Shown: piece by piece, positions 593-28,522 of the stretch
Position numbering within the stretch: the first letter of the stretch is position 1
How the letters are laid out: each line of letters opens with the position of its first letter
Translations under genes and position numbers: made by a program
The notes under the pieces: model-generated
The model's database searches: none
What the model saw: the letters and a program-made list of their open reading frames with translations, nothing else
What the model was told of the DNA's origin: nothing
Source: Erythrobacteraceae bacterium
Lineage (GTDB): Bacteria > Pseudomonadota > Alphaproteobacteria > Sphingomonadales > Sphingomonadaceae
Reading direction: 5' to 3'
DNA: 64,000 bases
NCBI GenBank assembly: GCA_027489065.1
Contig: JAIYAM010000028.1
Coordinates: 1-64,000, forward strand

Positions 593-1411
593 ATGGCAGC
601 TATTTCCGGCCTCATCCGCGTCATGGAACGCGCCGCGCGCAAGGCGGGCGGGCGTCTGCGGCGCGATTTCGGCGAAGTCGAGCACTTGCAGGTCAGCCGC
701 AAGGGCCCGGCCGATTTCGTCAGCAAGGCGGACATCCGCGCCGAGCGCACGCTCTACGACGAACTCTCCGCCGCGCGTCCCGGTTGGGGCTTCGTGATGG
801 AGGAAGCCGGCGTGATCGAGGGCGATCCCGGCATGCCGCGCTGGATCGTCGATCCGCTCGATGGCACCAGCAACTTCCTCCACGGCATCCCGCACTTCGC
901 GATCAGCATCGCCGCGCAGGAACCGCGCGCCGATGGCAAGGGCTGGGGCGATGTGGTCGCGGGCGTGGTCTATCAGCCGATCACCGACCAGACCTTCTGG
1001 GCGGAAAAGTCGCGCGGGAGCTGGCTTCAGGATGCGCGCCTGCGCGTCTCGGCCCGCTCGCGTCTGGCCGATGCGCTGGTGGCGACCGGCGTGCCCTTCT
1101 TCGGCCACGGCGACTTTGCCGAATGGAGCCGGATCTTCGGCGCGATCGGTCCGGAAGTGGCGGGCATCCGTCGTTTTGGCGCCGCTTCGCTTGATCTCGC
1201 CTATGTGGCGCAGGGCCGCTTCGACGGCTTCTGGGAAAGCGGCTTGTCCGAATGGGACACGGCGGCCGGCTGTCTGCTGGTGCGCGAGGCTGGCGGCTTC
1301 GTCAGCGACTATCGCGGGCGGTCCGAGCCGATCCACGCGAACCAGGTGCTGGCGGCGAACGATGCGCTGCACTCCAAGCTGCACAAGCTGCTGGCCGGGG
1401 CGCTGCGGTAA
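593..1411 (+). CDS. suhB: inositol monophosphatase family protein (SuhB-like)
   Basis: 272-residue Mg2+-dependent phosphatase of the inositol monophosphatase/FIG superfamily. The metal-binding motif WIVDPLDGTSNFLHG is near residue 84-98, the upstream acidic residues are in the FVMEEAG segment, and the second family motif SEWDTAAGCLLVREAGG is near residues 217-233. Length is typical of the family. The ATG at 593 is preceded by a weak purine stretch (AGAGAG). Members hydrolyse inositol-1-phosphate or related sugar phosphates, and E. coli SuhB also acts in rRNA antitermination. Substrate cannot be read from sequence, so the symbol is tentative. Confidence 0.85.
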   Translation: MAAISGLIRVMERAARKAGGRLRRDFGEVEHLQVSRKGPADFVSKADIRAERTLYDELSAARPGWGFVMEEAGVIEGDPGMPRWIVDPLDGTSNFLHGIPHFAISIAAQEPRADGKGWGDVVAGVVYQPITDQTFWAEKSRGSWLQDARLRVSARSRLADALVATGVPFFGHGDFAEWSRIFGAIGPEVAGIRRFGAASLDLAYVAQGRFDGFWESGLSEWDTAAGCLLVREAGGFVSDYRGRSEPIHANQVLAANDALHSKLHKLLAGALR

Positions 1412-1417
1412 GCAGTC

Positions 1418-1503
1418 CCGTCATCCCTGCGCAGGCAGGGATCCATCCACGCGCTCGTCTGGCGTCAACGTCGGATGGGCCCCTGCCTTCGCAGGGGCGA
1501 CGA
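1418..1503. repeat. pair of REP-like palindromes
   Basis: Two hairpin-forming palindromes lie downstream of the phosphatase gene: ATCCCTGCGCAGGCAGGGAT at 1423-1442 and GCCCCTGCCTTCGCAGGGGC at 1479-1498, about 36 bases apart. The 'GTCATCCCTGCG...AGGCAGGGATCCA' form matches a widespread class of proteobacterial intergenic repeats. A similar pair occurs at 46105-46187. They may also stabilise the 3' end of the upstream mRNA. Confidence 0.6.
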
Positions 1504-1520
1504 GAAATGCTGACAGTCCC

Positions 1521-1614
1521 AGACTCCCTCCCGATCGTTCAAAACCCCCCTCCAGATCGTTCCAGACCCCCCTTAGACCCCTGTTAGACCCCGCCTAGAC
1601 CCCCTCCAGATCGG
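1521..1614 (+). repeat. 11-bp-phased AGACCCC array beside parS
   Basis: Non-coding stretch built of elements starting AGA or a close variant at 1521, 1532, 1543, 1554, 1564, 1575, 1586, 1597 and 1608: spacing is 11 bp throughout except one 10-bp step. The best units are AGACCCCCCTT, AGACCCCTGTT, AGACCCCGCCT and AGACCCCCTCC. The array ends directly at the parS palindrome. The reverse complement of its centre, GGGGTCTAACAGGGGTCT, is found identically in the second array at 28461-28522. Phasing near one helical turn suggests binding of a protein along one DNA face. No function is known to me. Confidence 0.75.
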
Positions 1615-1630
1615 TGTTTCACGTGAAACA
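1615..1630. other. parS: parS centromere site (perfect)
   Basis: TGTTTCACGTGAAACA, a perfect 16-bp palindrome identical to the bacterial parS consensus bound by the chromosome-partitioning protein ParB. It is non-coding, between the phosphatase gene and tRNA-Leu. parS sites normally cluster near the replication origin, so the window is probably origin-proximal, although no parA, parB or dnaA gene is in it. A second, near-perfect site is at 28423-28438. Confidence 0.92.
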
Positions 1631-1693: not shown

Positions 1694-1778
1694 GCCCCTG
1701 TGGTGGAATTGGTAGACGCGCTCGACTCAAAATCGAGTTTCGAAAGAAGTGCCAGTTCGAGTCTGGCCAGGGGCACCA
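1694..1778 (+). tRNA. tRNA-Leu (CAA anticodon)
   Basis: Class II tRNA of 85 nt including an encoded CCA (1776-1778). The acceptor stem GCCCCTG pairs with CAGGGGC. The D-arm region contains TGGTAGA. The anticodon stem CTCGA/TCGAG encloses loop CTCAAAA, giving anticodon CAA. There is a long variable arm and a T-arm with GTTCGAGTC. It decodes UUG. It lies about 60 bases downstream of the parS site. Confidence 0.95.
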
Positions 1779-1859: not shown

Positions 1860-3182
1860 ATGCGCATCACTCGGATTCTGGCAGGGGCGAGCCTGCTCGC
1901 ATGGGGCGCGATGCCGGCGCAGGCGGACAATCTGCGCGACGCGGTGACGTCGCAGATGCCGGCGCTGGTCGAGCTCTACAAGGACCTCCACACGCACCCC
2001 GAGCTGTCGTTCCAAGAGGTTGAAACGGCAAAGAAACTTGCCGTCCGTGCGCGGGCGCTGGGTTTCGAGGTGACCGAAGGCGTGGGCAAGACCGGCGTGG
2101 TCGCGGTGATGAAGAACGGCCCCGGACCCACGGTGCTGCTGCGCGCCGACATGGACGGCTTGCCGGTGATCGAGCAGACCGGGCTCCCCTACGCTTCCAA
2201 GGTACGCGCCGTGGCGCAGAACGGAACCGAGACCGGGGTGATGCACGCCTGCGGGCATGACACACACATGGCAAGCTGGGTCGGAACGGCGCAGCTGCTT
2301 GCCGCACGCCGGAAGGAATGGTCGGGCACGCTGGTGATGATCCTCCAGCCGGCGGAGGAGATCGGGCAGGGGGCCAAGGCCATGCTCGACGACGGGCTCT
2401 ACACACGCTTTCCCAAGCCGGACTATGTGCTTGCTTTTCATGACGCTGCGCAGTTCCCCGCGGGGCAGATCGGCTACACCAAGGGCTTCGCGCTCGCCAA
2501 TGTCGATACGGTCGACGTGGTGGTGCCGGGCGTGGGCGGACATGGGGCCTATCCGCACACCACCAAGGACCCGATCGTCATCGCCTCGGCCATCGTGATG
2601 CGCCTACAGACGCTGGTGAGCCGCGAACTCAATCCTACAGATTCGGCCGTGGTGACGGTGGGGAGCTTCCAGGCCGGAGCGAAGCACAACATCATTCCCG
2701 ACGAAGCGCGGCTTCAGCTCACCGTCAGGAGCTACAGCGACGAAACGCGCAAGCACCTGCTCGACGGGATCGCCCGCATCGCCAAGGGAGAGGCGATTGC
2801 CGCCGGGCTGCCCGAGGACAAGATGCCGAAGGTCACCGTGCAGGACCCCTATACGCCCGCGACCTACAATACGGCCGAGATGACCGACAAGGTGTCGGCG
2901 GGGCTGAAGGCCCGTTTCGGGGAGCGGGTGCAGGAGACTGCCCCTGTGATGGGCGGCGAGGATTTCAGCCAGTTCTACCGCGCCGACAAGGCCAACGTGC
3001 AGTCGCTGATCTTCTGGGTCGGCGGGGTTCCGAAGGACCAGTGGGACCGCGCGCAGAAGGGCGAGATCCAGCTCCCTTCGCTGCATTCGCCCTTCTGGGC
3101 ACCGGATGCGCCGGTAGTGATCGCCACCGCGACCGAGGCGATGACCGCCGCGACGCTCGGCCTGCTCGCCAAGAAGAAGTAG
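1860..3182 (+). CDS. secreted M20 family amidohydrolase/peptidase
   Basis: 440 residues. The start at 1860 is chosen because GGGAGGA lies 8 bases upstream and it yields a clean signal peptide (MRITRILAGASLLAWGAMPAQA, cleavage after AQA). Zinc-metallohydrolase signatures of the M20D (hippurate hydrolase/IAA-amino-acid hydrolase-like) group are present: THPELSFQE, RADMDGLPV, MHACGHDTHMAS with metal-binding Cys/His, QPAEEIGQGA with the catalytic glutamate, and MGGEDFSQF near the C-terminus. It probably hydrolyses N-acyl or amide bonds of amino-acid conjugates in the periplasm. Substrate is unknown. It is monocistronic, followed by tandem repeats and a terminator. Confidence 0.88.
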   Translation: MRITRILAGASLLAWGAMPAQADNLRDAVTSQMPALVELYKDLHTHPELSFQEVETAKKLAVRARALGFEVTEGVGKTGVVAVMKNGPGPTVLLRADMDGLPVIEQTGLPYASKVRAVAQNGTETGVMHACGHDTHMASWVGTAQLLAARRKEWSGTLVMILQPAEEIGQGAKAMLDDGLYTRFPKPDYVLAFHDAAQFPAGQIGYTKGFALANVDTVDVVVPGVGGHGAYPHTTKDPIVIASAIVMRLQTLVSRELNPTDSAVVTVGSFQAGAKHNIIPDEARLQLTVRSYSDETRKHLLDGIARIAKGEAIAAGLPEDKMPKVTVQDPYTPATYNTAEMTDKVSAGLKARFGERVQETAPVMGGEDFSQFYRADKANVQSLIFWVGGVPKDQWDRAQKGEIQLPSLHSPFWAPDAPVVIATATEAMTAATLGLLAKKK

Positions 3183-3188
3183 GGTTTG

Positions 3189-3293
3189 GCCCTCAAGTAG
3201 CGGAGCGGTAGGGCGACAGGAACGCCCTCAGGCAGCGGAGCGGTAGGGCGACAGGAACGCCCTCAGGCAGCGGAGCGGTAGGGCGACAGGAAC
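3189..3293. repeat. three tandem 35-bp repeats
   Basis: Three direct copies of a 35-bp unit start at 3189, 3224 and 3259, and a fourth begins at 3294 before diverging. Copies two and three are identical; copy one differs at one or two bases. Each junction can fold as AGGGCG-ACAGGAA-CGCCCT, giving a row of small hairpins just after the amidohydrolase stop. There are no spacers between units, so this is not a CRISPR. They may act as 3' mRNA stabilisers or reflect replication slippage. Confidence 0.8.
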
Positions 3294-3298
3294 GCCCC

Positions 3299-3353
3299 CA
3301 AAAAATTCGGCCGCCGGATTGCTACCCTCTCGGGTGCAGTCCGGCGGCCGTTT
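3299..3353. terminator. bidirectional rho-independent terminator
   Basis: A stem of 15 bp with one mismatch (CGGCCGCCGGATTGC against GCAGTCCGGCGGCCG, 3308-3350) encloses a 13-base loop. It is followed on the plus strand by TTTCTCC and on the minus strand by a run of six T (plus-strand AAAAAA at 3300-3305). It lies between two convergent genes and can stop transcription from both sides. Confidence 0.85.
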
Positions 3354-28422: not shown

Positions 28423-28438
28423 CGTTCCACGTGAAACA
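28423..28438. other. parS: parS centromere site (near-perfect)
   Basis: CGTTCCACGTGAAACA: the 14-bp core GTTCCACGTGAAAC matches the parS consensus GTTNCACGTGAAAC, with only the first outer base differing. It is intergenic between phoU and phoB, 26.8 kb from the perfect site at 1615. ParB binding is predicted. Confidence 0.88.
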
Positions 28439-28460: not shown

Positions 28461-28522
28461 GGGGTCTAGAGCGGGTCTGGAGGGGGTCTAACAGGGGTCT
28501 GGGCGGGGTCTGGACCGAATCT
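28461..28522 (-). repeat. 11-bp-phased GGGGTCT array beside parS
   Basis: Six TCT elements begin at 28465, 28476, 28487, 28498, 28509 and 28520, exactly 11 bp apart, most preceded by GGGG. This is the reverse-complement form of the array at 1521-1614 and shares GGGGTCTAACAGGGGTCT with it. In both places, reading AGACCCC towards parS, the array sits on the same side of the palindrome. The gap to parS is 26 bp here and a few bases at the first site. The stretch 28308-28559 otherwise holds no gene. Confidence 0.78.

Follow-up and report, generated by a model that had tools for sequence, protein, structure and literature searches.

Two parS palindromes, each joined to a row of AGACCCC elements, lie in the window, by which we mean the whole 64,000-nucleotide stretch analyzed here (Table 1). 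With at most one mismatch allowed, GTTNCACGTGNAAC matches the window twice, against 0.07 matches expected by chance. Site 1 is flanked by a tRNA gene and by a gene that we take, from its motifs, to encode an inositol-monophosphatase-like protein. The preliminary description had placed a 16-bp parS palindrome at site 1, and it is present exactly there. It had also counted nine elements beside the palindrome. The phased array is real, but this number is too generous because four of the nine steps are degenerate. Site 2 was absent from the preliminary description, and its array lies on the strand opposite to that of site 1.

Two other kinds of repeat were seen nearby. The REP-like inverted repeat next to site 1 resembles one at another locus, L067, where it follows the array at the place expected for parS. 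The tandem repeat farther along lies downstream of a gene that is presumably amidohydrolase-like.

Table 1. Positions of features in the window
Feature	Position	Strand	Remark
Gene upstream of site 1	593-1411	+	272 aa
REP-like inverted repeat	1421-1504		CGTCATCCCTGCGCAGGCAGGGATCC...; directly upstream of the site-1 array
Site-1 array	1521-1614	+	10-11 bp steps, units read from the sequence, in register with parS; steps back from the palindrome at 1521, 1532, 1543, 1554, 1564, 1575, 1586, 1597, 1608
Imperfect units, site-1 array	1521; 1532, 1543, 1554, 1608	+	AGACTCC at 1521; the others degenerate
Perfect AGACCCC units, site-1 array	1564-1570, 1575-1581, 1586-1592, 1597-1603	+	
Site-1 parS core, GTTTCACGTGAAAC	1616-1629	.	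16-bp form TGTTTCACGTGAAACA at 1615-1630
tRNA-Leu (CAA)	1694-1778	+	downstream of site 1
Tandem repeat	3181-3300		about 3 copies of a GCGGAGCGGTAGGGCGACAGGAACGCC-type unit
Site-2 parS, GTTCCACGTGAAAC	28424-28437	.	second distal parS; one half-site of C4 type
AGACCCC units, site-2 array	28461-28467, 28483-28489, 28494-28500, 28505-28511	-	
AGACCCG unit, site-2 array	28472-28478	-	

Number, spread and chromosomal positions of the sites

The window's own genome (G000; 3,376,023 bases in 60 contigs) contains 77 GTTNCACGTGNAAC sites, whereas the reversed control pattern has 0 matches across the whole genome. Among the 50 of these 77 sites that were listed, 35 are of the form GTTTC..GAAAC (GTTTCACGTGAAAC), 14 are mixed and 1 is GTTCC..GGAAC. 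The window site is one case of a genome-wide system of composite sites.

We compared G000 with 36 other genomes of its genus and 24 genomes of the same order outside the genus (61 genomes). Each of the 24 out-of-genus genomes has at most five GTTTCAYGTGAAAC per strand. The paired unit AGACCCCNNNNAGACCCC was found in 16 of the 61 genomes, all within the genus and 4 of them with a single match. The many-site state is patchy within the genus, several members having 0-3 sites. In a sample of 249 genomes of the family, G000 and G281, which belong to the window's genus, are the only ones with more than one copy of the array-parS composite, and two further genomes carry one composite site each. A scan of a genome collection matched at least 111 stretches, among which lone matches in unrelated phyla may be chance, and a viral scan matched 47 stretches. 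In the ParB tree, the array clade is a single branch (support 100/100). In the open-access literature, we found no paper on parS and ParB together with Erythrobacter or Porphyrobacter; the sole match for parS "distributed throughout the chromosome" refers to labelled test loci, and papers containing the 16-bp parS string do not name the genus in their titles or the starts of their abstracts.

Sites close to parB differ from those elsewhere. The parB neighbourhoods of 20 genomes, covered over 12 kb (8 kb in G000), contain 3-9 parB-proximal GTTYCACGTGRAAC sites per genome. Two or more AGACC on one side were seen at only 2 of the 114 parB-proximal sites lying far enough from the edges, and neither array is in phase. 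At distal sites, AGACC arrays accompany 42 of the 50 listed sites of the 77 in G000, 37/45 in the relative G022 and 8/15 in the relative G003. With the looser unit [AT]GACC, these counts become 43/50, 39/45 and 12/15, against 9/114 near parB. Most arrays are one-sided; in G000, 36 of the 42 array sites lack AGACC on the opposite side over a distance of 160 bp. The preliminary description had proposed that the array is a docking site for a protein working with ParB at this centromere. A docking site is still the best reading of the array. That description had not foreseen that the site is no single centromere: copies away from parB number in the dozens, the window's among them, and the parS clusters beside parB lack phased arrays.

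Chromosomal parS sites are known near the origin, with up to 20-23 sites according to a passage of PMC7333895. In contrast, the distal sites range from parB to the far side of the chromosome in G022 (46 sites) and G003 (about 50), which are both one-contig chromosomes, and many of them have a phased array. In these two genomes, which unlike the 60-contig G000 allow mapping, the sites are thus not confined to the origin region. Distances from parB do not differ from a uniform distribution (Kolmogorov-Smirnov P = 0.64 for the 46 sites of G022; P = 0.66 for 52 mapped sites of G003, a map that omits two reverse-strand variant sites). Adjacent distal sites are rarely close together, with 0 intervals below 10 kb in G022 versus 6.5 expected and 1 in G003 versus 7.9 expected. 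The distal sites of G022 are spaced more evenly than random placement would give (P = 0.01), which is not clear for those of G003 (P = 0.19). This mutual avoidance may come partly from genes limiting the open places.

Helical register and conservation between relatives

The arrays are regular and are set at a fixed phase to the palindrome. At 46 G000 sites, the step between successive AGACC is 11 bp in 112 of 139 cases and 22 bp in 14. The AGACC nearest to parS falls in phases 7-9 of 11 at 41/42 array sites in G000 (binomial P = 2e-22), 33/37 in G022 (P = 5e-15) and 8/8 in G003 (P = 3e-5), the three phases having been picked after the G000 data were seen. The register is kept across gaps and degenerate inner units, and the last elements lie mostly 19-20, 30, 41 or 52 bp away. 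By arithmetic, the center of AGACCCC and the parS dyad face about the same side of the helix. The earlier proposal that the elements occupy one face of the helix and are joined to the palindrome as a unit is borne out by the register at 41 of the 42 array sites in G000.

Arrays away from parS had been named as evidence that would count against this linkage, and here the outcome is mixed. Among the first 100 unit pairs listed in G000, we distinguished 49 array loci, of which 30 lie no more than 160 bp from an exact parS, 6 have a parS with one mismatch and 13 have none. The one-mismatch palindromes are in phase 7 or 8. One of the 13 loci without parS, L054, resembles a coding coincidence. Four distal G000 arrays (L056, L057, L060 and L064) end in GTTTCATGTGAAAC, a parS with one altered central base, at phase 7 or 8.

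The unit itself is not the same everywhere. At L390, L399 and L402 of G035, another 11-bp iteron, CTTTGNCGNNN, stands beside parS; by eye, such arrays accompany about 3 of 15 distal sites, and they have a fixed phase of their own that differs from that of AGACC. G035 belongs to the same ParB clade, and therefore the array unit seems to have diverged within the clade.

Many sites keep their places in a relative. When 40 G022 loci, which had been selected by their GTTCC palindrome, were set against the G000 loci, flanks could be aligned for 27 pairs. Of these 27, 24 have matching palindrome positions, and in 3 of the 24 the G000 palindrome is GTTTCATGTGAAAC. Of the other three pairs, L032-L318 has its palindrome elsewhere, L035-L319 is ambiguous (a small alignment piece fits and the main piece lies elsewhere) and L065 has an array without a palindrome in G000. 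Both window sites are represented, paired with L346 and L347 of G022. The array beside parS is thus kept in close relatives, contrary to the outcome that would have spoken against the preliminary description.

Relation of the distal sites to ParB

The distal palindromes have much in common with chromosomal ParABS, namely the same 14-16 bp palindrome and a parA-like gene that adjoins parB, together with a parS cluster. The window site has the parS palindrome, and distal and parB-proximal palindromes share their sequence. In the 8-kb parB stretch of G000, GTTTCACGTGAAAC is found in 6/6 sites. G022 has a different palindrome throughout, with 53 GTTCCACGTGGAAC, 3 GTTTCACGTGGAAC and 0 GTTTCAYGTGAAAC. 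Seven of the 53 GTTCCACGTGGAAC lie at 419.8-423.1 kb, 1-4.5 kb from the canonical ParB gene (424.2 kb), and 46 are distal. Because the G022 loci of the pair comparison were preselected by GTTCC, this parS switch rests on the genome-wide counts and not on the locus pairs. Judged from sequence, the distal palindromes very probably serve as ParB sites.

ParB of G022 also differs in the region that reads parS. Its residue 180 (Caulobacter numbering) is H, against M in all 12 further ParBs sampled from the array clade. Half-sites near parB are 147 T4 and 17 C4 in the genomes of the 12 M-type ParBs, versus 15/16 C4 in G022. In seven genomes of other branches of the genus, residue 180 is Q and the half-sites are mixed (26 T4, 24 C4). 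Residue 180 is two positions beyond N178 of Caulobacter ParB in the numbering of PMC7383237, and the four specificity residues given in the passages of that paper do not include it. Residue 180 may be the cause of the parS change in G022.

G000, G003 and G011, in which arrays are present, each have one PF02195 match (E ≤ 0.001), and this search found no second ParB_N protein in them. A paralogue of the Noc type was accordingly rejected for these three genomes. Elsewhere, more than one PF02195 match occurs in several array species (6 in G022, 5 in G025) and also in array-less ones (5 in G033). No array-clade-specific gene stood out beside parB in 10 neighbourhoods, a weak comparison, made on gene calls alone and with most genes of the G006, G030 and G021 stretches missed by the caller, and no candidate for an array binder was found in these 10 neighbourhoods.

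Distal sites with and without arrays differ in the palindrome's own flanks. The AAT...ATT flank score (of 6) is higher at array-less than at array sites in G000 (5.43 vs 3.05, P = 0.0008; 7 array-less sites) and in G003 (5.0 vs 3.42, P = 0.033; 15 sites, 3 of them array-less), whereas the difference in G022 is not significant (5.0 vs 4.54, P = 0.29; 6 array-less sites); the array-less groups are all small. Sites without arrays also tend to have a GAAC box, which lies 7 bp beyond the palindrome and 11 bp from the AAC of parS. This box, which was noticed by inspection of the same sites, is present at 27 of the 41 distal sites without AGACC arrays, made up of 9/16 array-less sites in G000, G022 and G003, 10/15 in G035 and 8/10 in G023 (whose parB was not located), G013, G010, G028 and G001. 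It occurs at only 4/94 array sites of G000, G022 and G003 and at 1/118 parB-proximal sites. Array-less examples with the box include L006, L042, L340 and L397, and some such sites lie inside called genes. In our reading, the AGACC array and the GAAC box are two different means by which a distal parS is supported.

Interpretation of the composite sites

The number of sites, their spread in two relatives, their register, their conservation at orthologous places and the sequence shared by distal and proximal palindromes in species that differ in parS type come directly from computation. As the reading we favor, and one that we hold to be probable although well short of certain, these are composite parS sites away from the origin cluster, in which a palindrome that loads ParB is combined with phased sites for a second, putative protein that aids ParB. 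At the palindrome, the cell's canonical ParB would load. The array, one-sided and with an 11-bp period, would be a head-to-tail row of binding sites for the second protein, in register with the ParB dimer, and that protein might stabilize, lock or help load ParB at distal sites. The outcome would be ParB anchors distributed over the whole chromosome, which might work through MipZ or SMC. We infer the occupancy of distal sites by ParB in the cell, the separate array binder and the chromosome-wide anchors from these patterns.

Head-to-tail units one helical turn apart are bound by ParR at parC of plasmid R1 and form the boxes of PhoB/OmpR proteins. The layout of the AGACCCC array is alike, while its unit sequence is different, and to our knowledge neither kind of array is joined to a ParB palindrome. 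By analogy, the partner is likely to be a direct-repeat binder in the style of PhoB/OmpR or ParR.

ParB itself might bind the array through spaced, low-affinity half contacts, which would make a second protein unnecessary. Consistent with this, the array is in register with parS, the GAAC box of sites without AGACC arrays stands one 11-bp turn from the parS AAC and resembles half a parS, and a passage of PMC7022226 reports that P. aeruginosa ParB binds half-parS. However, AGACCCC is little like GTTTCAC, and the unit is unchanged in G022 despite its GTTCCACGTGGAAC palindrome, so we regard this explanation as unlikely.

Alternatively, the array could lock the ParB clamp or act as a roadblock, so that sliding of ParB is limited on one side and a distal parS becomes harmless, comparable to the stalling of KorB by KorA. 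The one-sidedness of the arrays and the lack of phased arrays at parB-proximal parS would fit. In plasmid RK2, KorB and KorA likewise pair a ParB-family clamp with a DNA-bound partner that can lock it, as described in PMC11790492. KorA differs in having one operator, at promoters, whereas here a multi-unit array stands beside parS, mostly at gene ends. Arrays sit at parS sites with weak flanks in G000 and G003, and therefore help fits better than restraint; moreover, a mere block needs no strict register. We give restraint a small chance, equal to that of binding by ParB itself.

A third alternative is a signal for the end of transcription, with the C-rich array as a Rho utilization (rut) site and the palindrome as an RNA hairpin. 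The sites do lie at gene 3' ends. With neighbor genes called by our own codon model and not taken from annotation, the 38 G000 array sites outside genes that have both neighbors called comprise 22 convergent, 9 + 7 tandem and 0 divergent pairs (the other rows of the 50 are 5 array sites with a neighbor missing or an in-gene position and 7 sites without an array). For the 33 array rows among 40 in G022, there are 19 convergent pairs (plus 1 flagged as in-gene), 8 + 4 tandem, 0 divergent and 1 with a neighbor missing. In the window, 5 of 53 neighboring gene pairs are convergent. On the array strand, C is abundant and G scarce, the spacing is 11 nt, and some flanks extend the palindrome.

However, between tandem genes the array lies on the sense strand 17 times and on the antisense strand 11 times (9 + 7 in G000, 8 + 4 in G022), and this split gives no support to a strand-specific RNA signal; a Rho-dependent terminator was rejected on it. 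An RNA hairpin or intrinsic terminator was rejected on pairing in the flanks, as positions 1-4 next to the core pair no more often than shuffled flanks (41 vs 41.1, 15 vs 16.1, 21 vs 19.3 and 25 vs 24.8 at 46 sites). Pairing at positions 5-7 is as high as the 95% point of the shuffled flanks, which hints weakly at structure, and that at positions 8-10 is near the shuffled expectation. Because the array strand is untied to transcription and compensatory pairing is lacking next to the core, these data argue against a rut site or a hairpin. The stem is also near-invariant within a genome and changes along with the parB-proximal parS, and a strict helical register with the palindrome is unexpected for a terminator. 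Taken together, a termination signal is very improbable.

A dispersed REP- or MITE-like repeat that contains the palindrome by chance and has no role in segregation would account for dozens of intergenic copies and for the REP-like repeats near site 1 and at L067, but it is hardly credible given that the copies share the palindrome and phased units and, by eye, no common body, that their places are conserved between species, that the palindrome changes with the proximal parS and that distal neighbors avoid one another. A G-quadruplex formed by the CCCC runs 7 bp apart was considered and would leave both the conserved AGA and the parS register unexplained.

A further known system comparable with the distal sites is Noc. 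Noc-binding sites (NBS) are dozens of short palindromes around the Bacillus chromosome, recognized by a ParB-family protein, and the distal sites resemble them in number and in spread. They differ in that NBS, distinct from parS, are read by Noc, a paralogue of ParB, whereas the distal sites equal parS and G000, G003 and G011 lack a second ParB_N protein. Noc serves nucleoid occlusion in Bacillus, and NBS density is lowest at mid-cell, as stated in a passage of PMC8429893. In contrast to this dip, the distal sites show no significant change with distance from parB in either mapped chromosome. We take the mid-cell minimum of NBS to be the terminus. We know of no array at NBS.

We tentatively suggest, as a possibility on which we would not yet rely, that in one clade of Erythrobacter/Porphyrobacter the origin centromere has become a network spanning the chromosome, in which ParB sits at 50-80 scattered parS, held there by a second, array-bound protein, and serves a Noc-like function. 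This could be nucleoid occlusion through MipZ, chromosome-wide anchoring or SMC loading, and it would have been reached by multiplication of parS and not by duplication of ParB. With ParB clamps all round the chromosome, MipZ or SMC could reach the entire nucleoid. All 7 of 7 genomes contain MipZ-like genes whose match is full-length (358-386 bits), although the family also matches all 14 control genomes.

A review (PMC7333895) states that P. aeruginosa and C. crescentus accept an extra parS only if it lies within about 600 kb around the native parS or the origin. parS has been regarded as confined to the origin region. A clade with chromosome-wide parS makes the question of centromere clustering directly testable. 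With its changed parS, G022 offers a natural experiment on ParB specificity, and a further ParB partner, which would be open to capture with array DNA, is suggested by the arrays.
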